Below, in pieces: positions 28,218-41,800 of a stretch of DNA of 41,800 bases. The stretch is from Streptacidiphilus anmyonensis (GTDB lineage: Bacteria > Actinomycetota > Actinomycetes > Streptomycetales > Streptomycetaceae). The stretch's first letter is position 1; each line of letters begins with the position of its first letter. The position numbers and the translations under genes are program-made. The notes under the pieces are model-generated. The model did not search any database, was not told where the DNA came from, and was given only the letters and a program-made list of their open reading frames with translations. The stretch lies in NCBI RefSeq assembly GCF_000787855.1, contig NZ_BBPQ01000045.1, positions 23,148 to 64,947 on the forward strand, written 5' to 3'.

Positions 28218-28655
28218 ATGCGCAAGCCCTCACGGCTGGCAGCCGCCGGGGTCCTCGCGGCCGGTCTGGTACTCGGCGCCTGCGGCGTGGCGAGCGCCGA
28301 CGCCACCGCGAACGGGGTGGCGACCAACTCGCCGGGCTTCCTGTCCGGCAACCTGATCCAGGTCCCGGTCCACATCCCGGTCAACATCTGCGGCAACACG
28401 GTCAACGTGCTCGCCGCCGGCAATCCGGCGGGCGGCAACCTCTGCGTCAACGGCGAACACGTGGTCGGCGCCGGCCACGAGATGGGCGCGGACCACGAGA
28501 TGGGCGCCGGCCACGAGATGGGCGCGGACCACATGGCGTGGCAGCACCACTGGTGGCAGCACAGCGACGCGGCGACCGACCAGAACCGCGGTGACGACCA
28601 GAGCCAGGCCGACGACCAGAGCCAGAGCGACGACCACGGCCAGGACTGCGATTGA
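28218..28655 (+). CDS. Chaplin with long Met/His/Asp-rich C-terminal tail
   Basis: 145 residues; AAGGAG precedes the ATG. A signal peptide (MRKPSRLAAAGVLAAGLVLGACGVASA) is followed by one full chaplin domain (ANGVATNSPGFLSGNLIQVP ... VNICGNTVNVLAAGNPAGGNLCVN, with the two conserved Cys). Chaplins are amyloid-forming surfactant proteins that coat aerial hyphae. Unlike short chaplins it continues for about 70 residues: three and a half GHEMGA/DHEMGA repeats, a His/Trp patch (MAWQHHWWQHSD) and a DDQSQ repeat ending in Cys. There is no sortase motif or C-terminal membrane helix, so it is not a normal long chaplin. Metal binding by the His/Met/Asp tail is inference. Confidence 0.88.
   Translation: MRKPSRLAAAGVLAAGLVLGACGVASADATANGVATNSPGFLSGNLIQVPVHIPVNICGNTVNVLAAGNPAGGNLCVNGEHVVGAGHEMGADHEMGAGHEMGADHMAWQHHWWQHSDAATDQNRGDDQSQADDQSQSDDHGQDCD
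28473..28535 (+). repeat. 18-bp tandem repeat in the chaplin tail (GHEMGA/DHEMGA)
   Basis: Units begin at 28473, 28491, 28509 and (partial) 28527, in frame, alternating GGCCAC and GACCAC starts, which gives HEMG repeats. Confidence 0.88.
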
Positions 28656-28717
28656 TACCGATCCCGTCCGCCCGAAGCACCGCGCGCTCTGACGCGCCGT
28701 CACCCCCGATAATACGC

Positions 28718-28752
28718 ATCGGCCCTGCTCCCGAGCATGGAGCAGGGCCGAT
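28718..28752. terminator. Bidirectional terminator between convergent chaplin genes
   Basis: A perfect 14-bp stem (28718-28731 with 28739-28752) and a 7-nt loop, between the stops of the long-tailed chaplin (plus) and the next chaplin (minus). Confidence 0.82.
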
Positions 28753-28811
28753 CCGTGTGCCGCGGACGACGCCGCGGACGATGCGACGGCTGGCGCCGCG
28801 CGCGCTGGCAG

Positions 28812-29057
28812 TCAGCCGACGTTGGCGGCGTGGTTGCCGAAGGCCGGGTTCAGCAGGCCGACCACGTTGGCGGAGTTGCCGACCACGTTGACCGGGATGT
28901 GGACCGGCAACTGCAGCTCGTTGCCGCTGACCGCGCCCGGGGAGTTCGAGGCGTCGCCGCAGGCGTGGGAGCTGGCGAAGGCGGCACCGGCCCCGGCCGC
29001 GACGACCGCACCGGCGGCGACGGAGGCGACCATGGCGCCCTTCAGAACGTTCGACAT
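28812..29057 (-). CDS. Short chaplin lacking the conserved Cys pair (ChpE-like)
   Basis: 81 residues. Signal peptide MSNVLKGAMVASVAAGAVVAAGAGAAFAS, then a chaplin domain SNSPGAVSGNELQLPVHIPVNVVGNSANVVGLLNPAFGNHAANVG. The usual CGN...C pair is VGN...A, as in S. coelicolor ChpE, which also has no Cys in the domain. One Cys remains before the domain (SSHACGDAS), which could form intermolecular disulfides (inference). It is the only minus-strand member of the locus and is divergent from the next chaplin across 363 bp. Confidence 0.9.
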   Translation of the reverse strand: MSNVLKGAMVASVAAGAVVAAGAGAAFASSHACGDASNSPGAVSGNELQLPVHIPVNVVGNSANVVGLLNPAFGNHAANVG

Positions 29058-29420
29058 GACTCTCGATTCCTCGCACGTGTGGAGCACGTTTGGACCACGC
29101 CACCGGGTCCGACCGGGGCGGGGCCCGCGGTCACCGAACCGCAGGCACCGAGCCCAACGAGGCCGGTTCGCAGCCGTCACCGGCCATTTTCGACATTCAC
29201 CCGGACGACGGATTCCACCGAACATGCGCCCATTCGGGTGGAGCTGGAGTTGACCCATGTCCTCGTGAACGAAAGGTCGTTGGAGAGTCCGGATGAACAA
29301 GAGCGGAACACGGCGAACGCCCCCGGCCGGATCGAGACCCGAGACGCACCGGAGCAGCGAGGCCTGACCGCCGATCCCGAGATCTTCGTACCAAGAGAAT
29401 CACGAGAGGGGACACCTCCC
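29058..29420. other. Divergent chaplin promoter region
   Basis: 363 bp between divergent chaplin genes with no convincing gene. It must hold both promoters; I could not pick out clear -35/-10 pairs. The plus-strand gene has a purine-rich AGAGGGGAC ribosome site at about 29405-29413. Confidence 0.4.
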
Positions 29421-29663
29421 ATGCTCAACACCAAGCGCGGCCTTCTGGTCACCGTCGCCGCGGCCGGCCTGCTCGCCGCCGGTGGTGGCGTCGCAGCCGC
29501 CAGCAGCACCGCTCAGGGCACCGCGGCCAACTCGCCGGGCTTCCTGTCCGGCAACCTGGTCCAGGTCCCGGTCCACGTCCCGGTCAACCTGTGCGGCAAC
29601 ACGGTCAACGTGATCGCCCTGCTGAACCCGGCGTTCGGCAACCACTGCGCCAACGAGGGCTGA
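29421..29663 (+). CDS. Short chaplin
   Basis: 80 residues: signal peptide (LLVTVAAAGLLAAGGGVAAA) and one chaplin domain, TAANSPGFLSGNLVQVPVHVPVNLCGNTVNVIALLNPAFGNHCANEG, with both conserved Cys. Secreted, expected to assemble into amyloid fibrils on the aerial surface, possibly anchored by partner chaplins. Its own terminator follows. Confidence 0.93.
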   Translation: MLNTKRGLLVTVAAAGLLAAGGGVAAASSTAQGTAANSPGFLSGNLVQVPVHVPVNLCGNTVNVIALLNPAFGNHCANEG

Positions 29664-29684
29664 TCTCCCGTCCTCGCAAGCGTG

Positions 29685-29713
29685 GGGCCCGGCCGCGAGC
29701 AGCGGCCGGGCCC
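29685..29713 (+). terminator. Terminator after short chaplin
   Basis: A 12-bp perfect GC stem (29685-29696 with 29702-29713), loop GAGCA, then TTCCTCC. It lies 21 nt after the stop codon. Confidence 0.85.
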
Positions 29714-29873
29714 TTCCTCCATCGAAGCGATGTGCGATCGGCTGTCCGAGTGGTCGTTCGAGTCGGCTCGTGACCGCGCGGTCCGACGCTCGTTTCGTCA
29801 TGCGTCCCCTCCTTTTTCGAAGGGGCGCTCGGAAACGCACACCAGCAACATCCCAGACCGAAGGGTTCCCATC

Positions 29874-30113
29874 ATGAGCAAGGTCATCAAGGCCGCCGCG
29901 CTTGGCGCCGCCGCCGCTGCCGTCACCCTCGTCGGCGCGGGCATCGCCTCCGCCGACTCCACCGCGAACGGCGTCGCCGCCAACTCCCCGGGCTTCCTCT
30001 CCGGCAACCTGGTCCAGGTCCCGGTCCACATCCCGGTCAACGTCTGCGGCAACTCGGTCGACGTGGTCGGCCTGCTGAACCCGGCGTTCGGCAACGCCTG
30101 CCTCAACAAGTAA
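29874..30113 (+). CDS. Short chaplin
   Basis: 79 residues: signal peptide (IKAAALGAAAAAVTLVGAGIASA) and the domain ANGVAANSPGFLSGNLVQVP ... VNVCGNSVDVVGLLNPAFGNACLNK with both conserved Cys. The leader contains GAAGGG before ATG. Only 26 nt separate it from the next chaplin, so the two are an operon. Confidence 0.93.
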   Translation: MSKVIKAAALGAAAAAVTLVGAGIASADSTANGVAANSPGFLSGNLVQVPVHIPVNVCGNSVDVVGLLNPAFGNACLNK

Positions 30114-30139
30114 GGCACGTCCAAGATTGGAGATCCACC

Positions 30140-30385
30140 GTGCGTAAGCTCACGACCGCAGGCGCCGTCTCCCTCGCCTCCGTCGGCCTGCTGACGGGCG
30201 CCGCGGGAGCCGCCTCGGCCGACGCAGGGGCGAACGGCGTCGCCGCCAACTCCCCCGGCGCCGTGTCCGGCAACGCGATCCAGGTGCCGGTCCACATCCC
30301 GGTCAACCTGTGCGGCAACTCAATCGACGTGATCGGCGCGCTGAACCCCGCGTTCGGCAACACCTGCGAGAACGCGCCCTGCTGA
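30140..30385 (+). CDS. Short chaplin with an extra C-terminal Cys
   Basis: 81 residues from a GTG with GGAG 8 nt upstream. Signal peptide ends near AASADAG; the domain is NGVAANSPGAVSGNAIQVPV ... LCGNSIDVIGALNPAFGNTCENAPC. In addition to the two usual Cys there is a third as the last residue, giving an odd number and a free thiol that could cross-link chaplins (inference). Second gene of the pair starting at 29874. Confidence 0.93.
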   Translation: MRKLTTAGAVSLASVGLLTGAAGAASADAGANGVAANSPGAVSGNAIQVPVHIPVNLCGNSIDVIGALNPAFGNTCENAPC

Positions 30386-30420
30386 CGCCCTGCTGACCCT
30401 CACCCAGCAAGGCGGGTCCG

Positions 30421-30458
30421 CCGCGTCCCCCGCGCCTCGTCGGTGCGGGGGGTCGCGG
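30421..30458 (+). terminator. Probable terminator after the chaplin pair
   Basis: GC-rich hairpin with a one-base bulge (30421-30433 with about 30445-30458) after the stop at 30385. No T run. Confidence 0.55.
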
Positions 30459-30488
30459 TGCGCCCATCACCGGATCGGGAGACCCTCC

Positions 30489-30878
30489 ATGAAAACGGCC
30501 CGCGCAGCGGCGTTCGGCACCCTTCTTCTCTCCGTGGCCGGCCTCGTCGCCGCCTCCCCTGCCCAGGCGGCCGACTCGTCCCGGGCGGCCGGAACCTCCT
30601 CCGGCGCCCAGCCCAAGGCGGCCCTGCAGCCGCTCTCCGTCAGCCCCACCGTCACCGGGCTGACCGCGGCGGTCCCGAACGTGGTCCGCCCCGCGAAGGA
30701 CTTCCGTCTCGACCCGCTGGCCAACTCCGCGGCCGACCCGCTCAACAACGGCGTCGCCCTCAAGCCCGACCAGGGCGGGCCCGTCTCGACGCAGCCGGTC
30801 ACCTCCGGGTTGAGCAACGGCGGCGGGCTGACCAGCCTGCCCCTGGTCGGCGGAGTCGCCGGCCTGCTGCCGGGCTGA
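30489..30878 (+). CDS. Small secreted protein of unknown function next to chaplins
   Basis: 129 residues; GGGAG precedes the ATG. Signal peptide ends SPAQAADS. The mature part has no Cys and no chaplin domain; it is rich in Pro, Val, Leu, Asn and Gly, with the segments PTVTGLTAAVPNVVRPAKDF, LDPLANSAADPLNNGVALKP and a hydrophobic end (GLTSLPLVGGVAGLLPG). Such amphipathic, low-complexity secreted proteins occur in streptomycetes, but I know of no assigned function. A strong terminator follows. Its position suggests an aerial-surface role (inference). Confidence 0.78.
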   Translation: MKTARAAAFGTLLLSVAGLVAASPAQAADSSRAAGTSSGAQPKAALQPLSVSPTVTGLTAAVPNVVRPAKDFRLDPLANSAADPLNNGVALKPDQGGPVSTQPVTSGLSNGGGLTSLPLVGGVAGLLPG

Positions 30879-30912
30879 TCCCCACCGCGCGGCCTCGTCG
30901 CCACGCAGACCT

Positions 30913-30952
30913 CCGCCGGTCCTGCCTACTCCTCCTTCGGCAGGACCGGCGG
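30913..30952 (+). terminator. Terminator after the 30489 gene
   Basis: A perfect 14-bp stem (30913-30926 with 30939-30952) with a 12-nt loop, followed by ATTCTTGC. It also separates the plus-strand gene from the convergent gene ending at 31003. Confidence 0.82.
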
Positions 30953-31002
30953 ATTCTTGCTGCTCAGGACTCGGGACCCCGCAGGGCCCCCGGGATCACG
31001 GG

Positions 31003-31680
31003 TCAGCCGCGCGCGGAGTTGAGGGCGCCGTCGGCGCTGGCGACGACGTCCTGGACGGGCTGGATCAGGTTGGCGTCCGGGGTCCGCTGGTCCAGCGAGA
31101 GCTGGCCGCCGGGCGCGCTCTGCACGCGCGGCGGGGTGACCTCGGGCTGCAGCCGGGTCAGGTCGAGCTGCGGCAGCCGGGTGTCGGTCGTCGGCGCCGC
31201 GTAGGGCAGCGAACGGCCCTGGTAGGTGACCGGGTGGCCGACGCCGAGCGCGGCGCTGACGGCCTTGAGCGGCGCGGCCGGGACGGCCAGCCGTGCGCCG
31301 CCGTCGTGGACGGCGCCGTCGGCGGCCGGCATCGGGGCGGTCAGGCCCAGCTCCGGCGTGCGGTCCGCCGAGTCGAGGGCCGGCAGCAGCGGGTCGGGGA
31401 TCAGCGCGTGCTGGTCCCGGCCCTGCACCGGCGGCTTGAGCGGCATGGCCGGCATGCTGCCGGCGAGTCCGCTGTCCGAGTGCTGCCCGGTCACGTGCTG
31501 CACCAGCGTGCCCAGCGGCACGGCGAAGGGCACCTCCATCCGGCCGACGCTCTGCTCCAGCGCCTCCTGCTGCTGCGGCGAGAGCGGTTCCGCCTGGGCG
31601 CTGGTCGCGCTCACCGCGGCCAGGACCGGCGCCGCGCAGGCCGCCAGGGCGACGGCCGTTCCGCGGAGGGACTTGTTCAT
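31003..31680 (-). CDS. Secreted Pro/Leu-rich protein of unknown function next to rodlins
   Basis: 225 residues from an ATG with AGGAG 7 nt upstream. Signal peptide MNKSLRGTAVALAACAAPVL ... ATSAQAEP. The mature protein starts with a short helix (SPQQQEALEQSVGRMEVPFA), then is rich in Pro, Leu, Ala and Asp without Cys, with loosely repeated PxLP/PxLDxA/LTxP phrases (PLLPALDSADRTPELGL, LPQLDLTRLQPEVTPP). Probably largely extended or disordered. I do not recognise the family. Divergent from the first rodlin gene across 285 bp, so the two may share control. Confidence 0.75.
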   Translation of the reverse strand: MNKSLRGTAVALAACAAPVLAAVSATSAQAEPLSPQQQEALEQSVGRMEVPFAVPLGTLVQHVTGQHSDSGLAGSMPAMPLKPPVQGRDQHALIPDPLLPALDSADRTPELGLTAPMPAADGAVHDGGARLAVPAAPLKAVSAALGVGHPVTYQGRSLPYAAPTTDTRLPQLDLTRLQPEVTPPRVQSAPGGQLSLDQRTPDANLIQPVQDVVASADGALNSARG

Positions 31681-31886
31681 CGTGAAGCTCCTGACGCTCC
31701 GGTACGAGGCATGGGTTGGGGGCAAGGGTTGAGGGCGATTCAACAACGCCGAAGGGGTGGAGATTTCAGAAATCCACCCGTACGGCCCAGTACCTGCCCC
31801 GGAATTCCCTCCGTCGCTCACGAATTTCCCCCTTGCGGGTGAGTGACGGTCAGGCACGCGCGCCATCGGATTCCCTCGATCGGAGT

Positions 31887-31915
31887 CGCAACCACGTTGC
31901 CCCCGGTCTCGTTGG
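31887..31915 (+). promoter_or_regulatory. Candidate sigma-BldN-type promoter of the first rodlin gene
   Basis: CGCAAC (31887-31892) and CGTTGG (31910-31915) are 17 bp apart and about 50 bp before the rodlin start. From memory, sigma-BldN promoters carry CGTAAC-like and CGTTG-like elements with this spacing. One mismatch per element; not tested. Confidence 0.4.
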
Positions 31916-31965
31916 TTTGTGTGCCAGCACGACGGATTGATAGGTGTTCAGAAAGGCGCGCAGCA

Positions 31966-32304
31966 ATGCTCAAGAAGTCCTTTGCCGGTGTCGGTATGGC
32001 GGTGGCCGCTTTCGCGGCGACGGTCACTCCGGCGATGGCCATCGGCAACGCGGACGGCATGGCCAGCTCTGTGGAGGGCCCGGGCGGCACCAACGTCACC
32101 GGGACGTGGGGCAACGACAGCCCCAACTTCCACTTCCTGGACAACCCGAACATCTGCCTGCCCGAGATCCACCACGTCCAGGTCGGCCTCGTGCCGATCC
32201 AGGCGGACGTGCCGATCGGCAACCAGCAGCTGCACCAGACCTGCAACGTCGGCCAGGCCACCCAGTCCACGGGCGACGGCGCGGCCTCGCACCTGATCGG
32301 CTGA
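31966..32304 (+). CDS. Rodlin family protein (copy 1)
   Basis: 112 residues. Signal peptide MLKKSFAGVGMAVAAFAATVTPAMA followed by a mature domain starting AIGNADG. IGNADG..., VGLVPIQADVPIGNQQLHQTCNV and GDGAASHLIG line up with RdlA/RdlB of S. coelicolor (MAIGDD, IGLVPIQ, NQQC, DGALAHLL). Two conserved Cys (ICLPEIHH and TCNVGQ). Rodlins organise chaplin fibrils into the rodlet layer of aerial hyphae and spores. First of three tandem copies; purine-rich GAAAGG lies upstream of the ATG. Confidence 0.88.
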   Translation: MLKKSFAGVGMAVAAFAATVTPAMAIGNADGMASSVEGPGGTNVTGTWGNDSPNFHFLDNPNICLPEIHHVQVGLVPIQADVPIGNQQLHQTCNVGQATQSTGDGAASHLIG

Positions 32305-32346
32305 TCGGGTTCCACGCGCAGTTCCGCAGCACCCGCAGCACCCGCA

Positions 32347-32376
32347 GTGCGCAGTACCGAAGTGCGCAGTACCGAA
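32347..32376. repeat. Two exact 15-bp tandem repeats before rodlin copy 2
   Basis: GTGCGCAGTACCGAA occurs twice without a gap, preceded by GCAGCACCC-type repeats (about 32325-32346). It occupies most of the 107-bp gap between rodlin copies 1 and 2. Confidence 0.9.
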
Positions 32377-32411
32377 CGAACGATCTGAACCAACTCACCA
32401 GGAGAAATCCC

Positions 32412-32750
32412 GTGATCAAGAAGTCCCTGGCCGCCGTCGGCCTCGCCGCCACCGCGCTCGCCGTGACCGCCGCCCCGTCCTTCGCCATCGGCGACAGCGA
32501 CGGCGCCGCGTACTCGACCCAGGGCGCGGGCGGCACCGACGTCACCGGCACCTGGGGCAACGGCAGCCCGAACTTCCACACCGCGGACAACCCGAACGTC
32601 TGCCTGCCCGAGATCCACCACGTCCAGGTCGGCCTCGTGCCGATCCAGGCGGACGTCCCGGTCCTCAACCAGCAGGGCCACCAGATCTGCAACGTCGGCC
32701 AGACCACGCAGACCTTCGGCGACGCCCCGCTGAGCCACCTGATCGGCTGA
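32412..32750 (+). CDS. Rodlin family protein (copy 2)
   Basis: 112 residues from a GTG with AGGAG 7 nt upstream. Signal peptide MIKKSLAAVGLAATALAVTAAPSFA, then AIGDSDGAAYSTQGAGGTDV, the shared GTWGNGSPNF block, ICNVGQTTQTFGDAPLSHLIG. It has the same two Cys as the other copies but is the most divergent of the three, especially at HTADNPNV (HFLDNPNI in the others) and the C-terminus. Its 3' end is followed by a short hairpin, then copy 3. Confidence 0.88.
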   Translation: MIKKSLAAVGLAATALAVTAAPSFAIGDSDGAAYSTQGAGGTDVTGTWGNGSPNFHTADNPNVCLPEIHHVQVGLVPIQADVPVLNQQGHQICNVGQTTQTFGDAPLSHLIG

Positions 32751-32756
32751 CCTTCC

Positions 32757-32775
32757 CCGATCGGTCACCGATCGG
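32757..32775 (+). terminator. Short palindromic hairpin between rodlin copies 2 and 3
   Basis: CCGATCGG, TCA, CCGATCGG: two identical self-complementary 8-mers that can form an 8-bp stem with a 3-nt loop, 7 nt after the rodlin stop codon. It could be an attenuator or an operator. Confidence 0.5.
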
Positions 32776-32818
32776 CGGGTCCCGCCCACCCCAGTCGGAC
32801 AGAAAAGAGAACCACCCC

Positions 32819-33160
32819 ATGCTGAAGAAGGCCCTCGCCTACGCCGGTGTCGCGGCCGCCGCGATCGCCGCCACGGCGACGCCCGCCTCGGCCATCGGCG
32901 ACACGGACGGCTCCGCCGTCTCCACGCAGGGCGCCGGCGGCACCAACGTCACCGGGACCTGGGGCAACGACAGCCCCAACTTCCACTTCCTGGACAACCC
33001 GAACATCTGCCTGCCCGAGGTCCACCACGTGCAGGTCGGTCTGCTGGTCCCCGTCCAGGTCGACGTCCCGGTCGGCAACCAGCAGCTGCACCAGGTCTGC
33101 AATGTCGGCCAGGCGACCCAGTCCACGGGCGACGGCGCGGCCTCGCACCTGATCGGCTGA
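32819..33160 (+). CDS. Rodlin family protein (copy 3)
   Basis: 113 residues. Signal peptide MLKKALAYAGVAAAAIAATATPASA, then AIGDTDGSAVSTQGAGGTNV, GTWGNDSPNFHFLDNPNICL, VGLLVPVQVDVPVGNQQLHQ and STGDGAASHLIG. It has one extra residue (VGLLVPVQ against VGLVPIQ). Its middle and its last 45 bp match copy 1 almost base for base, including third codon positions, although its N-terminus is closer to copy 2. A 20-bp terminator stem follows. Confidence 0.88.
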   Translation: MLKKALAYAGVAAAAIAATATPASAIGDTDGSAVSTQGAGGTNVTGTWGNDSPNFHFLDNPNICLPEVHHVQVGLLVPVQVDVPVGNQQLHQVCNVGQATQSTGDGAASHLIG

Positions 33161-33185
33161 GCAGTACCCAGACCCTCCAGGATGT

Positions 33186-33230
33186 AGCAGGAAGGGCCCG
33201 GGAGTCTTCGACTCCCGGGCCCTTCCTGCT
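33186..33230. terminator. Bidirectional terminator with a 20-bp perfect stem
   Basis: 33186-33205 is the exact reverse complement of 33211-33230, with the 5-nt loop CTTCG. It sits between the stop of rodlin copy 3 (33160) and the convergent stop of hemB (33242), 26 nt and 12 nt away, and should end both transcripts. Confidence 0.93.
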
Positions 33231-33241
33231 CTCACCCAAAC

Positions 33242-34228
33242 TCAGCTGTCGCGCAGCCAGCGGGCGGCCTCGACGGCCCAGTAGGTGAGGATCTGCTCGG
33301 CGCCCGCGCGGCGGATCGAGGTGAGGGTCTCCATGATCATCCGGTCCCGGTCGATCCAGCCGTTGGCCGCGGCGGCCTCGACCATCGCGTACTCGCCGGA
33401 CACCTGGTAGGCGGCGACCGGCACCGGGCTGTGGTCGGCGACCTCGCGCAGCACGTCCAGATAGGCCATCGCGGGCTTGACCATCACCAGGTCCGCGCCC
33501 TCGGCGACGTCCAGCTCCAGTTCGCGCAGCGACTCACGGGCGTTGGCCGGGTCCTGCTGGTAGGCCTTGCGGTCGCCCTTGAGGGAGGAGCCGACGGCCT
33601 CGCGGAACGGACCGAAGAACGCGGAGGCGTACTTCGCGGTGTAGGCGAGGATCGACACGTCCTGGTGCCCCGCCTCGTCCAGCGCCTGGCGGATCACCGC
33701 GACCTGACCGTCCATCATCCCGGAGGGCCCCACCATGTGGACGCCGGCGTCGGCCTGGACCCGGGCCATCTCCGCGTAGCGCAGCAGGGTCGCGTCGTTG
33801 TCGACGCTGCCGTCGGCGGCGAGGACGCCGCAGTGGCCGTGGTCGGTGTACTCGTCCAGGCACAGGTCGGACATGACCACGACCTGGTCCCCGACCTCCG
33901 CGACGACGTCGCGGATGGCCTGCTGGAGGATCCCGTCGGGGTTGGTCCCCTCGGAGCCGACGGCGTCCTGCACGGCCGGGACGCCGAACAGCATGATGCC
34001 GCCGACGCCCGCGGCCGCGGCCTCGTTGGCGGCCTTCTTCAGGGTGTCCCGGGTGTGCTGGACCACGCCGGGCATGGAGGCGACGGGAACCGGCTCCTTG
34101 ATCCCCTCCCGCACGAACATCGGCAGGATCAGCTCGGCCGGGTGGAGCCGGGTCTCCGCGACGAGCCGCCGGACGGCGGGAGTCGTACGAAGTCGCCGAG
34201 GGCGGATGTACGGACTCTCGATACCCAT
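33242..34228 (-). CDS. hemB: 5-aminolevulinate dehydratase (porphobilinogen synthase)
   Basis: 328 residues. HemB condenses two 5-aminolevulinates to porphobilinogen. Landmarks are [30 protein letters not shown] (the region that holds metal ligands in many HemB enzymes), [20 protein letters not shown] with the first active-site Lys, and [13 protein letters not shown] with the Schiff-base Lys; YQVSGEYAM completes the site. AGGAG lies 8 nt before the ATG. Last gene of the rex-hem operon, 36 bp after hemD. Confidence 0.96.
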
Positions 34229-34264
34229 TTACTGCGCTCCTTCAGTTCCACGAGCCGGACGAGG

Positions 34265-35947
34265 TTAGCGGGCCTTCCGACGTGACCCAGGCCGTCGCTC
34301 CGAGGGGCGGTAGACCGGCTCGCCCGCCTCGTGGGCCGCGTCCCGGCGCGCCGCGCCGAACTCGGCGAGGGCCTCGGCGAGAGCGTGGACGGACGGGGCG
34401 GGAGCGAGGACGTCGACGCGGAGCCCGTGCTCCTCGGCCGTCTTCGCCGTCGCGGGGCCGATGCAGGCGATGACGGTCACGTTGTGCGGCTTGCCCGCGA
34501 TGCCGACCAGGTTCCGCACGGTCGACGACGACGTGAAGATCACCGCGTCGAAGCCGCCGCCCTTGATCGCCTCGCGGGTCTCCGCCGGCGGCGGCGCCGC
34601 GCGGACGGTGCGGTAGGCGGTGACGTCGTCGACCTCCCAGCCCAGCTCCACCAGGCCCGCGATCAGCGTCTCGGTGGCGATGTCGGCGCGGGGCAGCAGC
34701 ACGCGGTCGATCGGGTCGAAGACCGGGTCGTAGGGCGGCCAGTCCTCCAGCAGCCCGGCGGCGCTCTGCTCGCCGCTCGGCACCAGATCCGGCTTGACGC
34801 CGAAGTCGACCAGCGCCTTGGCCGTGGTCTCGCCGACCGCCGCGACCTTGATGCCCGCGAAGGCACGGGCGTCGAGCCCGTACTCCTCGAACTTCTCGCG
34901 CACGGCCTTGACCGCGTTGACCGAGGTGAACGCGATCCACTCGTAACGGCCGGTCACCAGGCCCTTGATGGCGCGTTCCATCTGCTGCGGGGTGCGCGGC
35001 GGCTCGACGGCGATGGTCGGGACCTCGCTGGGGACCGCGCCGTAGCCGCGCAGCTGGTCGCTGAGCGCGCCGGCCTGGTCCTTGGTGCGCGGGACGAGGA
35101 CGTTCCAGCCGAAGAGCGGCTTGGTCTCGAACCAGGACAGCTCCGCCCGGTGCTCGACCTGCTCGCCGACGACCACGATGACGTTGCTGGCCGGGTCCAC
35201 CGGCGCCGAGACCGGCGAGGGGAGGACCTTGGCCGCCTTCAGCTCGGCCGCGATCGAGCCGAGCGTGCCGCACCAGGTGCGCTGACGCGTCGTCGTGCCC
35301 TCGAGGGTGACCGAGACCGGCGTCTCCGGCTTGCGACCGTTGGTCACCAGGGACGAGGCCGTGGACGGGATCGAGCCGAGTATGGTGCGGACCACGAGCG
35401 TCGACTCGCAGGCGCCGAGGTCGGCCCAGACCGACTCCGGGAGCAGGCCGGCCGCGTCGACGAAGCGGACGTCCGCACCGCGCGCGCCCGCGCGCAGCGG
35501 GACGCCGGCGTAGGCGGGGACGCCGACGGACTGGGCGATGCCGGGCACGACCTGGAAGGGGACGTGCGCCTGGGCGCAGGCCAGCATCTCCTCGGCGGCG
35601 CGGCCGTCGAGGCCGGGGTCGCCGTCGACGGTGCGCACGACGTGCTTGCCGCCGCGGACCGCGCCGAAGAAGCGAGAGACCGCGGCGCCGCCGTCGCCGC
35701 CCAGCACGCCGCCCTCGTCGAGGACGAAGGCGTCGGAGGCGTCGGCGGCCTGGTGCATCTCGACGTGCGCGGGGCAGTGGGCGCGCACGGCCGCTGCGGT
35801 GAGCGGGTCGGCCACGAGCACGTCGGCGGAGGCGAGCACCTCCACCGCACGCAGCGTCAACAGGCCGGGGTCGCCGGGACCGGCACCGAGGAAGGTGACC
35901 TGGCCGACGGCGCGACGCGGGTTGTCGGGACTGGCGGTGGGGCTCAC
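34265..35947 (-). CDS. hemD: Uroporphyrinogen-III methyltransferase-like / uroporphyrinogen-III synthase fusion
   Basis: 560 residues from a GTG that overlaps the hemC stop (GTGA). The N-terminal half (about 15-255) is an SUMT/CobA-like domain: VTFLGAGPGDPGLLTLRAVEVL, DPGLDGRAAEEML, VPFQVVPGIAQSVGVPAYAG and TPVSVTLEGTTTRQRT. The C-terminal half (about 280-530) is HemD: FGWNVLVPRTKDQAGALSDQ, WIAFTSVNAV, AAVGETTAKAL and FTSSSTVRNLVG. HemD closes hydroxymethylbilane to uroporphyrinogen III; the SUMT half would methylate it towards siroheme or B12. This fusion is the usual form in streptomycetes. The tail is Arg/Glu-rich. Whether the SUMT half is active cannot be judged from sequence alone. Confidence 0.94.
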   Translation of the reverse strand: MSPTASPDNPRRAVGQVTFLGAGPGDPGLLTLRAVEVLASADVLVADPLTAAAVRAHCPAHVEMHQAADASDAFVLDEGGVLGGDGGAAVSRFFGAVRGGKHVVRTVDGDPGLDGRAAEEMLACAQAHVPFQVVPGIAQSVGVPAYAGVPLRAGARGADVRFVDAAGLLPESVWADLGACESTLVVRTILGSIPSTASSLVTNGRKPETPVSVTLEGTTTRQRTWCGTLGSIAAELKAAKVLPSPVSAPVDPASNVIVVVGEQVEHRAELSWFETKPLFGWNVLVPRTKDQAGALSDQLRGYGAVPSEVPTIAVEPPRTPQQMERAIKGLVTGRYEWIAFTSVNAVKAVREKFEEYGLDARAFAGIKVAAVGETTAKALVDFGVKPDLVPSGEQSAAGLLEDWPPYDPVFDPIDRVLLPRADIATETLIAGLVELGWEVDDVTAYRTVRAAPPPAETREAIKGGGFDAVIFTSSSTVRNLVGIAGKPHNVTVIACIGPATAKTAEEHGLRVDVLAPAPSVHALAEALAEFGAARRDAAHEAGEPVYRPSERRPGSRRKAR

Positions 35948-36936
35948 TTGGCTCGCTCCCCCATGAGACCGGCAGCGCCGGCGGCGAGCAGGCGCGCGGC
36001 GAGGCCGCGTCCCAGCTCGTCGGGGGCGCCGTGGCCGGTGGCGGACAACTGCACGACGGTGTCTCCGTCGACGGTGCCGACGACGGCCCGCAGTTCGAGC
36101 TCGTCGGCGTGGGTGGTGGCTGGTGTGGTGGCGAGCGCGCCGACCGGCGCGGAGCAGCCGGCCTCCAGGGCGGCCAGCAGGGTGCGCTCGGCGGTGACGG
36201 CGGCGCGGGTGGGCGCGTCGTCGAGGGCGGCCAGGGCGGCGACCAGCACGGGGTCGCCCGCGGCGCACTCGATGGCGAGGGCGCCCTGGCCGGGGGCCGG
36301 GAGCATCACGTCGGTGTCGATGACCTCGGTGGCCTCGGCGAGGCGGCCGAGACGGCTCAGACCGGCGGCGGCGAGGATCACGCCGTCGAGGCGGCCGTCG
36401 CGGACGTAGCCGATGCGGGTGTCGACGTTGCCGCGGATCGGGACCGTCTCGATCGCCAGGCCCTCGGCTCGGGCCCAGGCGTGGAGCTGCGCCATGCGGC
36501 GCGGGGAGCCGGTGCCTATCCGGGCCGGGTGGGCCGGGTCGGCCTTCTCCAGCAGCTCGCTCAGGGTCAGCCCGTCGCGGGCGACGATCGCGTCCCGCGG
36601 GTCCTCGCGCTTCGGGACGGCGGCGAGGACGAGCCCCTCCGGCGCGGCCGTGGGCAGGTCCTTGAGGGAGTGGACGGCGAAGTCGATCGTCCCGGCGAGC
36701 AGCGCGTCGCGCAGCGCGGAGACGAAGACGCCGGTGCCGCCGATCTGCGCGAGCGCCTCGCGGGAGGTGTCGCCGTAGGTGGTGATCTCGACCAGCTCGA
36801 CGCGGCGCCCGGTGGCGGCGGTGACGGCTTCGGCGACCATGCCGGACTGGGCCATGGCCAGCGCGCTGCGCCGGGTGCCGAGCCGTAGCGCGGGTGGTGG
36901 GGAGGAGGGCTGAGTCATGCTCGTCTGACCCGTCAT
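35944..36936 (-). CDS. hemC: Hydroxymethylbilane synthase (porphobilinogen deaminase)
   Basis: 330 residues from the ATG that overlaps the hemA stop (ATGA); an ATG six codons later is possible. LRLGTRRSALAMAQSGMVA, DFAVHSLKDLPT, IGTGSPRRMAQL, PIRGNVDTRIGYV and LPAPGQGALAIE are the standard substrate and cofactor sites. Cys near residue 261 in LEAGCSAPVG binds the dipyrromethane cofactor. HemC joins four porphobilinogens into hydroxymethylbilane, the substrate of the next gene product. Confidence 0.96.
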   Translation of the reverse strand: MTGQTSMTQPSSPPPALRLGTRRSALAMAQSGMVAEAVTAATGRRVELVEITTYGDTSREALAQIGGTGVFVSALRDALLAGTIDFAVHSLKDLPTAAPEGLVLAAVPKREDPRDAIVARDGLTLSELLEKADPAHPARIGTGSPRRMAQLHAWARAEGLAIETVPIRGNVDTRIGYVRDGRLDGVILAAAGLSRLGRLAEATEVIDTDVMLPAPGQGALAIECAAGDPVLVAALAALDDAPTRAAVTAERTLLAALEAGCSAPVGALATTPATTHADELELRAVVGTVDGDTVVQLSATGHGAPDELGRGLAARLLAAGAAGLMGERAK

Positions 36937-38240
36937 GAGATCATCCTGGTGGTGCTGACGGCCTCAACGGCCATGGGATCGAGGTCGAACAGTTCGCGCA
37001 GCGCCTCGGCGTAGGAGGCCCCGCCGGGCTCCCCGGCCAGTTGCTTGACACGGACGGTGGGCTGGTGGAGCAGCTTGTCCACGACGCGGCGGACGGTCTG
37101 CTGGATCTCCGCGCGGGTGCGGGTGTCCAGCTCGGGGAGGCGCCCGTCGAGTCGCTCCAGCTCGGCGTTGACCAGCTCGGTGGCCATGGCGCGCAGGGCG
37201 ACGACGGTCGGGGTGATCGCGGCCGCGCGCTGGGCGGCGCCGAAGGCGTCGACCTCCTCGGCCACGATGCGGCGGACCGCGTCGACGTCGAGGGCGCCGG
37301 AGTCGGCGTGCTGGGCGGCGGTCGCGAGAGTCTCCAGGTCGACCAGGTGGACGCCGGGGAGGGCGTGCGCGGCCGGGTCGACGTCGCGCGGCATGGCCAG
37401 GTCGAGCACGGACAGCGGGCCGGCGAAGGCGCTGCGCTTCTCGGCCGCCAGGGCGAGGTCCTCGGCGGTCAGCACGATCCCGGCCGCCCCGGTACAGGAG
37501 ATGACGACGTCGGCCTCGGCGAGGGCGGCGCCGACCTCGTCGAAGGGGACGGCCCGGCCGCCGAGCTGCTCGGCGAGGCGTTCCGCCTTCTTCTGTGTGC
37601 GGTTGGCGATGACCAGCTCGGCGACGCCCTCGCGGGCGAGGGTGGCGGCGGCGAGCGAGCTCATGGATCCGGCCCCGACGACCAGCGCGCGGCGTTCGGC
37701 GACGGGCCCGGCGACGGCGGCGATCTGCTCCAGGCCGAAGGTGACCAGCGTCTGCCCGGCCTTGTCGATGGCGGTCTCGCTGTGGGCGCGCTTGCCGACC
37801 CGCAGGGCCTGCTGGAACAGCTCGTTGAGGCCCCGGGCCGCGGTGTGCTGGTCCTGCGCCAGGTGCAGCGCGTCGCGCAGCTGGCCGAGGATCTGACCCT
37901 CGCCGACGACCATCGAGTCCAGGCCGCAGGCCACCGAGAAGAGGTGGTGCACGGCGCGGTCCTCGTAGTGCACGTAGAGGTGCGCGGTGAGCTCGTCCAG
38001 GGCGACGCCGGAGTGCTCGGCGAGCAGCGTGGACAGCTCGGCGACCCCGGCGTGGAACTTGTCCACGTCGGCGTAGAGCTCGATGCGGTTGCAGGTGTTC
38101 AGCAGGGCGGCCTCGGCCACCGGCGTCGCCGCGGCGGCGGAGTGCAGCAGCCGGGACGGCTGATGCCCCGTCAGCGCGGCGCGCTCCAACAGACCGACCG
38201 GCGCGCTGCGGTGGCTCAGTCCCACGACCAGCAGGCTCAT
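36933..38240 (-). CDS. hemA: Glutamyl-tRNA reductase
   Basis: 435 residues. First enzyme of the C5 pathway; makes glutamate-1-semialdehyde, the HemL substrate. The N-terminus LLVVGLSHRSAPV, catalytic Cys50 in LLNTCNRIELYA, SVACGLDSMVVGEGQILGQL, the NADPH site RRALVVGAGSMSSLAAATL and a C-terminal dimerisation helix (RAEIQQTVRRVVDKLLHQPTVR) are all present. The ATG overlaps the rex stop codon (ATGA), so it is translationally coupled to the redox regulator. Confidence 0.96.
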   Translation of the reverse strand: MSLLVVGLSHRSAPVGLLERAALTGHQPSRLLHSAAAATPVAEAALLNTCNRIELYADVDKFHAGVAELSTLLAEHSGVALDELTAHLYVHYEDRAVHHLFSVACGLDSMVVGEGQILGQLRDALHLAQDQHTAARGLNELFQQALRVGKRAHSETAIDKAGQTLVTFGLEQIAAVAGPVAERRALVVGAGSMSSLAAATLAREGVAELVIANRTQKKAERLAEQLGGRAVPFDEVGAALAEADVVISCTGAAGIVLTAEDLALAAEKRSAFAGPLSVLDLAMPRDVDPAAHALPGVHLVDLETLATAAQHADSGALDVDAVRRIVAEEVDAFGAAQRAAAITPTVVALRAMATELVNAELERLDGRLPELDTRTRAEIQQTVRRVVDKLLHQPTVRVKQLAGEPGGASYAEALRELFDLDPMAVEAVSTTRMIS

Positions 38241-39085
38241 CCCGCCGCCTCCTCGTACTCCTGGCCCTGCTCGTGCCCGTGGCCGTGTCCGGGCGCCACG
38301 GCGCGTTCCGGAGTGGAGACTACTGCGGCGGCGGGGGCGGAAGGGACTTCCGCGTCGGCGTCCGCCTCGGTGGGCCCGTCATCGTCGCGGTACTCGTCGC
38401 CGGCCTTGCGCTGCTCGTGGAAGGCCAGGATCTGCAGCTCGATGGAGAGGTCGACCTTGCGCACGTCGACGCCGTCCGGCACGTTCAGCACGGTCGGGGC
38501 GAAGTTGAGGATGCTGGTGACGCCGGCGGCGACGAGGCGGTCGCAGACCTGCTGGGCGGCGCCGGGCGGGGTGGTGATGACGCCGATGGAGACCCGCTCG
38601 GAGCGGATGATCTCCTCCATCTCGTCGGTGTGGCGCACCGGCAGGCCGGCCACCACGTTCCCGGTGATGGCGGGGTCGGCGTCGAGCAGGGCGGCGACGC
38701 GGAAGCCGCGGGAGGCGAAGCCGCCGTAGTTGGCGAGGGCGTGGCCCAGGTTTCCGATGCCGACGATGACCACGGGCCAGTCCTGGGTCAGGCCCAGCTC
38801 GCGGGAGATCTGGTAGACGAGGTACTCGACGTCGTAGCCGACGCCGCGGGTCCCGTAGGAGCCGAGGTAGGAGAAGTCCTTGCGCAGCTTGGCGGAGTTG
38901 ACGCCGGCCGCGGCGGCGAGCTCCTCGGAGGAGACCGTGGGCACCGAGCGCTCGGACAGGGCGGTGAGCGCGCGGAGGTACAGCGGCAGCCGGGCGACCG
39001 TCGCATCGGGAATACCCCGGCCCCGGCTGCGGCGGGTGCCTGCGGCGGGGTTGGGGTTGTGCTGAGTGGATCGGCCAGTTGCCAC
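38237..39085 (-). CDS. rex: Redox-sensing transcriptional repressor Rex
   Basis: 282 residues from a GTG with AGGAG 4 nt upstream (VATGRSTQHN). Winged-helix DNA-binding domain: RGIPDATVARLPLYLRALTA, SSEELAAAAGVNSAKLRKDFSYLGSYGTRGVGY. Rossmann NAD(H) domain: VVIVGIGNLGHALANYGGFA. Rex binds operators when NADH is low and releases them when NADH/NAD+ rises; in S. coelicolor it controls cydAB, nuo and its own rex-hem operon. The C-terminal tail (about 40 residues, Asp/Glu-rich, then HGHGHEQGQEYEEAAG) is a lineage extension. A Rex operator is visible in its upstream region. Confidence 0.96.
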   Translation of the reverse strand: MATGRSTQHNPNPAAGTRRSRGRGIPDATVARLPLYLRALTALSERSVPTVSSEELAAAAGVNSAKLRKDFSYLGSYGTRGVGYDVEYLVYQISRELGLTQDWPVVIVGIGNLGHALANYGGFASRGFRVAALLDADPAITGNVVAGLPVRHTDEMEEIIRSERVSIGVITTPPGAAQQVCDRLVAAGVTSILNFAPTVLNVPDGVDVRKVDLSIELQILAFHEQRKAGDEYRDDDGPTEADADAEVPSAPAAAVVSTPERAVAPGHGHGHEQGQEYEEAAG

Positions 39086-39130
39086 GGTGCTCCTGAGGGT
39101 GAAGCTGGGCTGCGAACGCCAGGCTATGTC

Positions 39131-39150
39131 TTTGTGAACGCGTGCACAAA
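39131..39150. promoter_or_regulatory. Rex operator (ROP) upstream of rex
   Basis: TTTGTGAACGCGTGCACAAA matches the Rex consensus TTGTGAANNNNTTCACAA with one mismatch. It is centred about 55 bp before the rex GTG, so it predicts autoregulation of the rex-hem operon by NADH/NAD+. Confidence 0.9.
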
Positions 39151-39186
39151 GATGGTGTCCGTTTTGTCCACCAGGAGTGATGCGCA

Positions 39187-39915
39187 TCACGCCCGCCCCC
39201 CGGGAACCGCGGGACACACTGCCGATACGCCGTACGGTACGGCGCACGGTACGCCGTACGCCTCGAGCCCGGAGACAGCGGAACGATTCTGCGTGTGCAG
39301 AGCCTGCGCCCGGCGGCGCAGCTTCGGCCACAGGGCGCGCTGAGCCTGCTCGACGGCCGCGCGCACCGGCTCGACGCCGCCGGCCGGAGTGGACAGGGCG
39401 CGGCGCAGCACCCGCGCGGTGGCGCGGGCGTCGCCGAGCGCGGTGTGCGCGTCGAAGCCGGGCAGCCCGAACGCGGCAGTGCAGGCGAGCAGTGAACGGC
39501 CGGCGAGCCGCGCGCCGAGGACGCGCTCGGCGAGCGCCATCGTGCACAGCGTCGGCACCTCCGGCACGGCGACCCCGATCCGGGCGAACTCCCGCACCAG
39601 GAAGCCCACGTCGCAGGCGACGTGGTGGCCGACCAGCACCCGGCCGCGCAGCAGGTCCGCCAGGTGGGGGGCGATCTCACGGAACACCGGCGCGCCCGCG
39701 ACCTGTTCCTGCGCGATGCGGTGCACGGACGTCGGCCCGACCGGCCCGCCGGGGTCGACCAGGGTGGTGAACTCGTCCTCGACGCGCAGCAGCGGGTAGT
39801 CGAGCAGCACGACGCCGACCTCGACCACACGGTGCCGCCAGGGGCTGCGCCCGCTCGCCTCGACGTCCACCACGGCGAACCCGCGAGCGGGCGGCGGCGT
39901 GGACGGGGGCTGCAC
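39187..39915 (-). CDS. DnaQ-like DEDDh 3'-5' exonuclease family protein
   Basis: 242 residues. I start at the GTG with AAGGAG 6 nt upstream (VQPPSTPPPARG); an upstream TTG precedes that site. Exo I is FAVVDVEASG (Asp and Glu), Exo II lies in VGHHVACDVGFL (Asp) and Exo III in FDAHTALGDARATA (His and Asp). The enzyme resembles the polymerase III epsilon subunit, but a stand-alone repair or RNA-trimming role is equally possible. The C-terminal 50 residues are not part of the fold and end in AYGVPCAVPYGVSAVCPAVP, encoded by palindromic repeats. Confidence 0.88.
   Translation of the reverse strand: MQPPSTPPPARGFAVVDVEASGRSPWRHRVVEVGVVLLDYPLLRVEDEFTTLVDPGGPVGPTSVHRIAQEQVAGAPVFREIAPHLADLLRGRVLVGHHVACDVGFLVREFARIGVAVPEVPTLCTMALAERVLGARLAGRSLLACTAAFGLPGFDAHTALGDARATARVLRRALSTPAGGVEPVRAAVEQAQRALWPKLRRRAQALHTQNRSAVSGLEAYGVPCAVPYGVSAVCPAVPGGRA
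39228..39259. repeat. Three CGCCGTAC half-elements in alternating orientation
   Basis: CGCCGTAC (39228-39235), its reverse complement GTACGGCG (39237-39244) and CGCCGTAC again (39252-39259), inside the 3' end of the exonuclease gene and 80-100 bp upstream of the Rex operator. The first two form a nearly continuous palindrome. Confidence 0.75.
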
Positions 39916-40052
39916 GGGGGGCTCCTTCTCGGTCGTCCCCCCGCGGCACAAAACCCCTCGATGGTAAGCGCACTAACAGCGGACGCCTACATCCTTACAA
40001 CCGGGTGAACCGGACATATCTTCCCCCGGCCTCATAGTTGGAGGCGCAATCG

Positions 40053-40331
40053 TTATGCGCCCAGCGCCTTGCGCAGGCGCACCGGGTCGACCTTCCAGAA
40101 GTCGTGCTGCCGTCCGTCGATCAGCGTGACCGGGATCTGCTCCCAGTACGTGCGGAACAGCTCCTTGTCCTCGTTGATGTCCAACTCCTCCACCGAGAAG
40201 CCGAGCTCCTCCGCGAGCCGGAGCACGACCGCGCGGGCGTCGTCGCACAGATGGCAGTCGGGCTTGCCGATCAGCGTCACCACGTGATCGGCGGGCTGCT
40301 TGGCGCTACGGCGCGGAAGAAGTGGAGCCAT
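40053..40331 (-). CDS. Glutaredoxin-like thiol-disulfide protein
   Basis: 92 residues. VVTLIGKPDCHLCDDARAVV is a thioredoxin/glutaredoxin-fold start with a CHLC redox pair (Cys26 and Cys29), and QIPVTLIDGRQHDFWKVD includes the cis-Pro loop. This is the short DUF836-type glutaredoxin family that lies near rex and hemA in streptomycetes. The ATG at 40331 gives the usual length; an ATG ten codons earlier is possible and no ribosome site decides. Divergent from the HAD hydrolase gene across 94 bp. Confidence 0.87.
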   Translation of the reverse strand: MAPLLPRRSAKQPADHVVTLIGKPDCHLCDDARAVVLRLAEELGFSVEELDINEDKELFRTYWEQIPVTLIDGRQHDFWKVDPVRLRKALGA

Positions 40332-40425
40332 GGCCACATTGTGGACCCGTCCGGCAGCCATGAGTTAACTCCCCCTCCACGCTGCGGATACAAGTTTCCG
40401 GCCGGTATCTGGCTATGCTCGCGGC

Positions 40426-41292
40426 ATGGCCAGGCAGCGGAACACCACGCGGCTCGCGGGCGAAGCCTCCGCGGAGGCAGCCGCGGAGCAGGAGCGACCG
40501 ACCGGGGATCTCTCGGTCGACCCGGCTGCGGGCGCGTTCTTCGACTGCGACAACACGATCATGCAGGGCGCGGCGATCTTCTACCTGGGCCGGGGCCTCT
40601 ACAAGCGCAAGTTCTTCTCCACCCGCGAGCTGGCCCGCTTCGCCTGGCAGCAGGCGTACTTCCGGCTGCACGGCGCGGAGAACGCCGGGCACATGGCCGA
40701 CGCCAAGGAGAGCGCCCTGTCCATCGTGCAGGGCCACCGCGCGGCGGACCTCGAGGCGATCTGCGAGGACGTCTTCGACGAGTTCATGGCCGAGAAGATC
40801 TGGCCCGGCACGCGCGCCCTGGTGCAGATGCACCTGGAGGCGGGCCAGCGCGTCTGGCTGGTCACCGCCGCGCCGCAGGAGGCGGCGCGCGTCATCGCCG
40901 CCCGGCTCGGCATGACCGGGGCGCTCGGCACGGTCGCCGAGACCATCGACGGCGTCTACACCGGCCGGCTGGTCGGCGAGCCGCTGCACGGCCCCGCCAA
41001 GGCCGAGGCGGTCAAGGCGCTCGCCGCCCGCGAGGATCTGGACCTCGCGCGCTGCGCCGCCTACAGCGACTCCGCCAACGACATCCCGATGCTCTCCCTC
41101 GTCGGCTACCCCTACGTCATCAACCCGGACGCCGAGCTGCGGCGGCACGCCCGGCGCAACGGCTGGCGGGTCCGGGACTTCCGCACCGGCCGCAAGGCGG
41201 CCAAGGTCGGCATCCCCGCCGCGGCCGGGCTCGGCGCGGCCGCGGGCGGTACCGCGGCGGCGGTCGCGATCTACCGCAACCGGCGCCGCTGA
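40426..41292 (+). CDS. HAD-IB family hydrolase (SerB-like phosphatase), membrane-anchored
   Basis: 288 residues. Motif I is FFDCDNT (Asp40 nucleophile, Asp42), motif II lies in VWLVTAAPQEA, the conserved Lys is in HGPAKAEAV and the motif III/IV acidic pair is AYSDSANDIPML. This matches the HAD-IB/phosphoserine phosphatase-like group. The Ala/Gly-rich C-terminus (GIPAAAGLGAAAGGTAAAVAIYRNRRR) looks like a membrane anchor with positive inside residues. An N-terminal low-complexity region of about 30 residues is Ala/Glu-rich. Substrate unknown. It precedes bldN in the same direction by 318 bp. Confidence 0.9.
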   Translation: MARQRNTTRLAGEASAEAAAEQERPTGDLSVDPAAGAFFDCDNTIMQGAAIFYLGRGLYKRKFFSTRELARFAWQQAYFRLHGAENAGHMADAKESALSIVQGHRAADLEAICEDVFDEFMAEKIWPGTRALVQMHLEAGQRVWLVTAAPQEAARVIAARLGMTGALGTVAETIDGVYTGRLVGEPLHGPAKAEAVKALAAREDLDLARCAAYSDSANDIPMLSLVGYPYVINPDAELRRHARRNGWRVRDFRTGRKAAKVGIPAAAGLGAAAGGTAAAVAIYRNRRR

Positions 41293-41610
41293 GCGCTTTT
41301 GGCGCAGTGAGCGCCCTGCATGCCAACTGACCGGTTCTGACCGGTCCTTGCTCGCGCGTATGCGCGGGATTCTCGCGCGACGCGCCCGGGAAGCCCCCCG
41401 GATCCGATCAGCCCCGGCCGGGCGCGGATCAACTCCGACCAGAGCTCCGGCAACCGAGCAGGACAGAGATGGTCACATTCTGCCACCGGGAGGTAACAGA
41501 TGTGACTGAAGCGGTGAATTTGGCAACTGGGTGTAGCTGTTGTTGCACGAAGCGTTATCCTCGTGCAGCGGTCCCACCCTGCACACCACAGTCCTGCCTC
41601 TGGGAGTCCC
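41293..41610 (+). other. Gene-free regulatory region upstream of bldN
   Basis: 318 bp without a gene. Near its start GGCGC-AGTGA-GCGCC (41301-41315) may terminate the HAD gene. GTAACAGATGTGAC around 41492-41505 resembles a BldD half-site pair (TNAC...GTNA) but with 4 rather than 5 intervening bases. TGCACGA...TCGTGCA (about 41546-41569) forms a 7-bp hairpin in the probable leader. The last 130 bp are less GC-rich, as expected of a promoter. Confidence 0.5.
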
Positions 41611-41800
41611 GTGTACCCACACGTCCGTGAAGACGCCGGCCTGACCCTGCTGCGCAGCCTGGTGCGTCGGGAGCAGTTGCTCCCTACGCCTGTTCTCGCG
41701 GTCGCGGGCGGCCCGGTGATCGCGCCGCTCGCGCCCCTGCCGACGCCCGCCGTGCTGCGCACCCGCACCACGGCGGGCGCACGCCCACGCGGCGCCGCGG
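41611..41800 (+). CDS. bldN: ECF sigma factor BldN, N-terminal extension (cut by window edge)
   Basis: GTG start with GGGAG 5 nt upstream; 63 codons are visible. The sequence begins VYPHVREDAGLTLLRSLVRR, very like the start of S. coelicolor BldN (VYPHVGVDASGLATLRATV), then an Ala/Pro/Thr-rich segment. BldN is made as a precursor with an N-terminal extension of about 86 residues not found in other ECF sigmas; what is visible is that extension, so the sigma domains lie beyond the edge. Its position after rex-hem and the glutaredoxin and HAD genes agrees with the known streptomycete order. In Streptomyces it controls bldM and most chaplin and rodlin genes. Confidence 0.88.
   Translation, partial: MYPHVREDAGLTLLRSLVRREQLLPTPVLAVAGGPVIAPLAPLPTPAVLRTRTTAGARPRGAA

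Follow-up and report, generated by a model that had tools for sequence, protein, structure and literature searches.

The subject of this report is a cluster of genes for the surface coat of aerial hyphae in Streptacidiphilus anmyonensis. The window, which is the whole stretch of 41,800 nucleotides analysed, corresponds to positions 23148-64947 of contig C109 in a 9.39 Mb assembly of 153 contigs, and its right edge is the contig end. Five chaplin genes and three rodlin-like genes lie together between 28218 and 33160, beside a block of haem biosynthesis genes that leads from hemB to bldN. In Streptomyces, chaplin and rodlin genes are activated by BldN, as are bldM and rsbN (PMC4255298, PMC4125116). 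The placement of the coat genes near bldN is a variant specific to one clade of the family Streptomycetaceae, whose component genes and regulator were already known. The coat cluster and the hairpin that follows it comprise:

28218-28655, plus strand: chaplin 1, of middle length, with a C-terminal tail rich in His, Met and Asp that ends in DCD (PF03777, 83.7 bits)
28812-29057, minus strand: chaplin 2, short (PF03777, 82.3 bits)
29421-29663, plus strand: chaplin 3, short (PF03777, 98 bits)
29874-30113, plus strand: chaplin 4, short (PF03777, 96.9 bits)
30140-30385, plus strand: chaplin 5, short, with a GTG start 26 bases past chaplin 4 (PF03777, 94.3 bits)
30489-30878, plus strand: SecA (name coined here), a small secreted protein of 129 amino acids, conserved in the cluster across the clade
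31003-31680, minus strand: SecB (name coined here), a proline-rich secreted protein of 225 amino acids, with relatives beside Streptomyces chaplins
31966-32304, plus strand: rodlin-like gene 1 (NF041022, E = 4.8e-10, under the cut-off)
32412-32750, plus strand: rodlin-like gene 2, with a GTG start (NF041022, E = 8.5e-11, under the cut-off)
32819-33160, plus strand: rodlin-like gene 3 (NF041022, E = 2.7e-11, under the cut-off)
33180-33236, no strand assigned: hairpin between the convergent rodlin 3 and hemB, a probable two-way terminator (-49.3 kcal/mol)

In a Pfam search all five chaplins exceed the gathering score of 21 for the ChpA-C domain (PF03777), with 82-98 bits, and their translations, judged by eye, begin with hydrophobic segments; chaplin 2 is the only one of the five on the minus strand. 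The count of five chaplins and three rodlins in a preliminary description of this DNA is borne out for the chaplins, and the rodlins give significant matches that fall below the cut-off of the NCBIfam rodlin model NF041022, so that "rodlin-like" is the safe term. Throughout the genus Streptacidiphilus this model yields a match in 13 of 14 genomes and passes its cut-off in none, and the eight nearest loci that share the rodlins of the window are all from Streptacidiphilus. The cluster also contains the two secreted genes SecA and SecB, which the preliminary description does not mention.

Genome-wide, ten PF03777 domains were found, five of them in the cluster, and five of the nine chaplin genes lie here. 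Outside the cluster, contig C148 carries a short chaplin and a long two-domain chaplin with an LAETG stretch, which we take to be a sortase motif, and contigs C36 and C84 carry a single short chaplin each. A search with rodlin 3 returned three rodlin-like genes, all in the cluster. No larger coat set thus competes with it elsewhere in the genome, and within this Streptacidiphilus it forms the largest group of aerial-coat genes.

The tail of chaplin 1 contains GHEMGADHEM repeats and could bind metal, to judge from its composition. Tailed counterparts occur in the 12 other Streptacidiphilus loci compared, and the last chaplin is tailed as well in the two Kitasatospora-type loci and the two loci of genus g11 compared; all these tails are His-rich or charged and end in DCD, DCC, DCN, DDC or KDC. 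Genus g3 has no such tail.

To the right of the hairpin the window continues with the hem genes, rex and bldN:

33242-34228, minus strand: hemB (PF00490)
34265-36268, minus strand: hemD with a uroporphyrinogen methylase domain; limits of the open reading frame, true start probably internal (PF02602, PF00590)
35944-36936, minus strand: hemC (PF01379, PF03900)
36933-38240, minus strand: hemA, glutamyl-tRNA reductase (PF05201, PF01488, PF00745)
38237-39547, minus strand: rex; limits of the open reading frame, true start probably internal (PF06971, PF02629)
39187-39951, minus strand: exonuclease of the RNase T family (PF00929)
40053-40361, minus strand: glutaredoxin-like protein (PF05768)
40426-41292, plus strand: HAD-family phosphatase (PF12710)
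41611-41800, plus strand: bldN, 5′ part only, cut by the contig end, with the remainder on contig C118 (locus L136; orthologue alignment)

The gene at the right edge is bldN, as had been proposed, and a gap in the assembly, about 18 codons long, interrupts it. The frame that opens with GTG at 41611 is 82% identical to residues 1-60 of S. jiangxiensis BldN, and residues 79-264 (S. jiangxiensis numbering) were found at the end of contig C118 with 99% identity. The C118 piece scores 258.4 bits against the BldN family model TIGR02952 (cut-off 206.45), close to the 255.2 bits of the S. jiangxiensis orthologue, for which the best solved relative is the entry 6dxo, an extracytoplasmic function (ECF)-subfamily sigma factor. 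BldN of locus L049 has 89 residues ahead of the matched domain, a putative N-terminal pro-sequence, and the window matches the first 60. A relative of rsbN, 94% identical to that of L049, adjoins the C118 piece. The coat genes are farther from bldN than the 8 kb first stated: the nearest rodlin lies at 8.45 kb and the chaplins at 11.2-13.4 kb. The assembly breaks inside the 5′ part of bldN (window 41790-41800), as do those of S. melanogenes, S. neutrinimicus and S. pinicola (ends of L047, L048 and L053), and S. jeojiense bldN lacks part of sigma region 2 (L052:19115-19690). The four broken drafts and the S. jeojiense defect suggest that sequencing or assembly is difficult here.

To define how widely the arrangement occurs, we located hemB in 120 of 121 family genomes and in 13 of the 14 Streptacidiphilus genomes, the exception being G013, with a rated completeness of 76%. 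Regions around hemB, extending 8 kb on the coat side unless the contig ended sooner, were taken from 40 of the 107 family genomes outside Streptacidiphilus (at least one for each of 16 other genera), from the 13 other Streptacidiphilus genomes and from 10 order-search genomes, namely seven of 15 other-family genomes and three of genus g9. Gene order was read with our own hidden Markov models (HMMs) and tblastn; the rodlin model was built from the coat-bearing clade and could miss very divergent rodlins, a risk to which the chaplin model is less exposed. Streptacidiphilus is genus g1. Genus g14 is Kitasatospora-type, being nearest to all nine named Kitasatospora-type loci, some of which are still titled Streptomyces. 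Genus g9 is taken as Streptomyces, since every named entry among the 120 listed (of 370) relatives of its SecB protein is Streptomyces.

Coat genes adjoin hemB in all 14 Streptacidiphilus genomes (L104-L114, L115, L116 and the window), including 12 of 12 regions with a located hemB apart from the window (L104-L115). At L115 the contig begins within SecB and only rodlins and SecB are visible, and at L116, from G013, the coat genes are present and hemB is fragmented. The same linkage was found in five of the six genomes sampled from the 27 of g14, in the single g3 locus, and in all three g11 loci, where chaplins and SecA stand beside hemB and neither rodlin nor SecB was found. All 17 loci selected by their rodlins have these beside hemB, a count biased by the selection. 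Across the 21 coat loci, 8.1-10.3 kb separates the end of the last coat gene and the beginning of the bldN matches. In the other genera no chaplin or rodlin match lies within 8 kb of hemB in any of 30 family and 10 order-search loci; L152 is set aside because only 2.3 kb is shown on the relevant side, and among the remaining 39 informative loci beyond the clade, which include six from sister families, the count is 0. Four g19 genomes of sister family f3 (G122, G125, G127 and G130) carry multi-domain chaplins, one of which lies 48-53 kb from hemB in all four.

The hem-bldN block itself reaches well beyond the coat-bearing genomes. Of the 40 family loci from outside Streptacidiphilus, 37 show bldN on the far side of the block, and for the other three (L072, L082 and L083) the stretch ends before that point. 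Six of the seven other-family regions, all from f3, show the order hem-rex-glutaredoxin-HAD-bldN, and the seventh (L148, family f2) hem and rex only. The block hemB-D-C-A-rex-glutaredoxin-HAD-bldN is therefore older than the coat linkage, since other genera and a sister family have it with no coat genes attached. The preliminary description had the rex-hem operon embedded in a developmental island, a phrase that reverses the order of events, since on the simplest history the coat genes are the later arrivals. Two irregularities were seen within the block: in some g9 genomes (L071, L080, L082, L083, L100 and L101 are listed) hemA appears as two separated tblastn pieces, as if by insertion, and the spacing between hemB and hemD is unusually wide in L080, L082, L083 and L157.

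In a tree of six concatenated proteins of this block (62 tips, the window not among them, rooted on f3, with several deeper nodes weak), every one of the 21 coat-bearing tips falls, together with G086, into a single clade (support 1.0). Linkage is kept in 22 of 23 clade genomes, that is 21 of 22 tips and the window. Most simply, the coat cluster joined the hem-bldN neighbourhood a single time, in the common ancestor that Streptacidiphilus and Kitasatospora share with two more genera, and was lost once later, in G086; this single joining would be why the two adjoin today. G086 belongs to g14 and lacks the whole hemB-side cluster, with three chaplin domains in total.

Three BldN-like sites were found upstream of coat genes:

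31887-31915, plus strand: site before rodlin 1, CGCAAC-N17-CGTTGG, boxes conserved
29154-29181, minus strand: site before chaplin 2, GGTGAC-N16-CGTTGG, weak against shuffles
29769-29796, plus strand: site before chaplin 4, CGTGAC-N16-CGTTTC, conserved in part

The published motif is CGTAAC-N16-CGTTGA, of which bldM was then the sole known site (PMC2375139). Across five species both boxes of the rodlin 1 site, CGCAAC and CGTTGG, are invariant and most of the 17-base spacer is variable; GTGAC and CGTT of the chaplin 2 site are likewise retained across five species, and the chaplin 4 site is intact in three of four. Upstream of chaplin 3 we found a conserved GGTCGTTGGA with a poor upstream box. 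Roughly dinucleotide-preserving shuffles matched the chaplin 4 site in 6 of 200 cases and the rodlin 1 site in 8 of 200, so that both stand out. Since the motif is short and its genome-wide count is about that of the control, only the position of a site is informative. Among the 17 genome-wide sites for CGTRAC-N16-CGTT are one before rsbN (first base 135 bases before), one 86 bases before the frame of a BldM-like response regulator with receiver and LuxR domains, and that of chaplin 4. In locus L147 the sequence CGTAAC-N16-CGTT, one of four CGTAAC sites genome-wide, starts 58 bases ahead of a putative lipoprotein gene, a candidate new BldN target.

A relaxed motif occurs at 0.32 sites per kb in the coat blocks and 0.10 outside (32 and 30 sites; 5 and 9 for the reversed control), and 21 of the 32 sites, from 21 coat blocks, lie 46-196 bases ahead of a chaplin or rodlin match. 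Of the 17 chaplins listed for seven g9 and g6 loci, 7 have the relaxed motif before them, the reversed control preceding 0 of 26 listed genes; this count omits L124's long chaplin, the second domain of a long chaplin in L120, the rodlin at the L122 edge and loci L125-L130. Dyad discovery upstream of 147 coat domains returned word pairs that resembled conserved coding or signal-peptide sequence and were not used, and a generic scan of 27400-34300 detected no sigma-70 promoter.

Control of the coat cluster by BldN is likely on these grounds, and several observations weigh against it. The upstream box of the chaplin 4 site is broken in S. pinicola, 27 of 200 shuffles match the chaplin 2 site, which makes it weak, and 86 of 200 that of chaplin 3, which is not distinct. 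The best sites before chaplin 1, SecA, SecB, rodlin 2 and rodlin 3 are no better than in shuffles. GTRAC-N16-CGTT occurs twice in the window, a number reached by 5 of 100 shuffles, and the 17 genome-wide sites compare with 15 for the reversed control. Of the relaxed sites, 11 of 32 are not close before any chaplin or rodlin, 6 of 21 coat loci have none, and in the seven g9 and g6 loci none of the four rodlins is preceded by one. To these must be added the scores of the three rodlin-like genes against NF041022, which at 39.5, 42.0 and 43.6 bits stay under the curated cut-off of 75.

The hairpin between rodlin 3 and hemB has 21 pairs, and none of 200 shuffles is equally stable. A hairpin occupies the gap between the last coat gene found and the convergent hemB in all 21 coat loci (-41.5 to -62.1 kcal/mol for the best 60-base window; the shuffle control applies to the window only). 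The generic scan of 27400-34300 found no terminator by the T-tract rule in the rodlin-hemB gap, and Rfam gave no matches within the window. The structure is a probable separator of the coat and hem transcripts.

We consider it probable, at about 78%, that the coat cluster is driven by BldN and joined the older hem-bldN block once in the ancestor of the clade. To judge from their families, the five secreted short chaplins and the three rodlin-like proteins would be produced during the formation of aerial hyphae and would build the amyloid and rodlet layers of the hyphal surface. Sigma-BldN, held by its anti-sigma factor RsbN, would probably initiate before rodlin 1 and chaplin 4 and perhaps before chaplin 2, and chaplin 5 would probably be co-transcribed after chaplin 4.

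Around this core, SecB raises the possibility of a larger unit. SecA and SecB match nothing in Pfam or NCBIfam; database searches gave 13 relatives of the window's SecB and 16 of its SecA, and the named ones are Streptacidiphilus except for one SecB under Streptomyces tateyamensis. SecA gave no match outside the clade in the loci scanned. An iterated HMM detects SecB relatives in all five g9 chaplin loci examined (L118-L122), where direct tblastn gave only a weak hit, in L119 (E = 3e-4). Comparison of a profile built from these five g9 loci only with that of the clade yields 98.0% probability over 171 columns; ten control versions, in which every column past 30 was shuffled, gave 10.7-41.8%. 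When the g9-only profile was searched in 23 whole genomes, five of the ten g9 genomes each showed a single copy next to chaplins, and the seven non-g9 genomes from outside the clade gave no match. Among clade members the profile matches the hemB-side coat-cluster SecB of G101 and G116, misses those of G015 and G074, and gives no match in G036 and G086, where none is known. The 370 protein-database relatives of g9 SecB were obtained at E ≤0.001, and none of the 120 listed has a Pfam domain. SecB accompanies chaplins at two chromosomal addresses in these genomes, and it is a candidate for an unrecognised coat partner. The Streptomyces locus resembles that of the window in having SecB between or beside chaplins; it differs in its chromosomal site away from hemB, in having no SecA match, and in that rodlins are matched solely at the L122 edge. 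SecB is not proposed as a BldN target: there is no good site before it in the window, none was assigned to it in 21 coat loci, and none of the five SecB genes listed in g9 loci has one. In L119:5800-7748 a Streptomyces chaplin with an HHDKGG tail stands beside a tyrosinase-like gene and its helper, presumably melC2 and melC1, with SecB next. A tentative extension, which we would hold at rather long odds, is a portable coat module that includes SecB as a structural or assembly protein and whose capture beside bldN was favoured.

We regard it as unlikely that linkage was selected for matched dosage, replication timing or local sigma supply, or because Rex redox or haem supply is tied to the coat. 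A sigma factor acts in trans, and linkage of the coat genes to bldN is therefore unnecessary for control. The linkage has persisted in all but one clade genome despite chaplin divergence, and by our own arithmetic the chance of landing at random no farther than 13.4 kb from bldN is about 0.3% for a genome of 9.39 Mb. However, this is a single event with a regulator picked post hoc, the hem-bldN block is conserved beyond the family so that persistence may merely reflect a quiet core region, the hairpin separates the coat and hem transcripts, and G086 keeps the block without the coat cluster. An alternative in which the hemB-side cluster dates back to the ancestor of the family, with later loss or relocation in Streptomyces and the other genera, is very improbable: the Streptomyces chaplin-SecB locus elsewhere does imply that parts predate the clade, but the absence of coat genes from every informative outside locus, sister-family loci included, would call for many independent losses. 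A single joining by a probably BldN-driven cluster thus remains our preferred account.

The chaplins and rodlins of S. coelicolor (ChpA-H, RdlA/B) belong to the same families of secreted aerial-coat proteins. Their genes are given as scattered in the preliminary description, and the SCO numbers of six chaplins agree (chpB sco7257, chpC sco1674, chpE sco1800, chpF sco2705, chpG sco2699 and chpH sco1675; PMC5650626). The genes chpA, chpD and rdlA/B lie at SCO2716-2719. Unlike these dispersed chaplins, five chaplins and all rodlin-like genes found stand here within a single block of 5 kb next to hemB and bldN, and the scores of the rodlins are below the NCBIfam cut-off. The claim of a new layout therefore holds with respect to S. 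coelicolor and fails as a peculiarity of this genome: gene order confirms the linkage expected in related genera, in 14 of 14 Streptacidiphilus, five of six Kitasatospora and all four genomes of two further genera. No description of a one-block coat layout beside bldN was found in the literature searched, which was mainly open-access. The genome resembles the BldN-RsbN system of S. venezuelae in its BldN family match, its adjacent rsbN relative and the BldN-like site before rsbN; here, in contrast, bldN lies 8.45 kb from the coat cluster, and its control of the cluster is a prediction.

For the family Streptomycetaceae the finding carries a caution, in that the coat-gene layout of S. coelicolor is not general. 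It offers a clean natural contrast, probably a single relocation on a well-supported branch, in which to ask whether position matters for a developmental regulon, and it presents SecB, together with SecA, as candidate missing components of that coat which can be put to the test.

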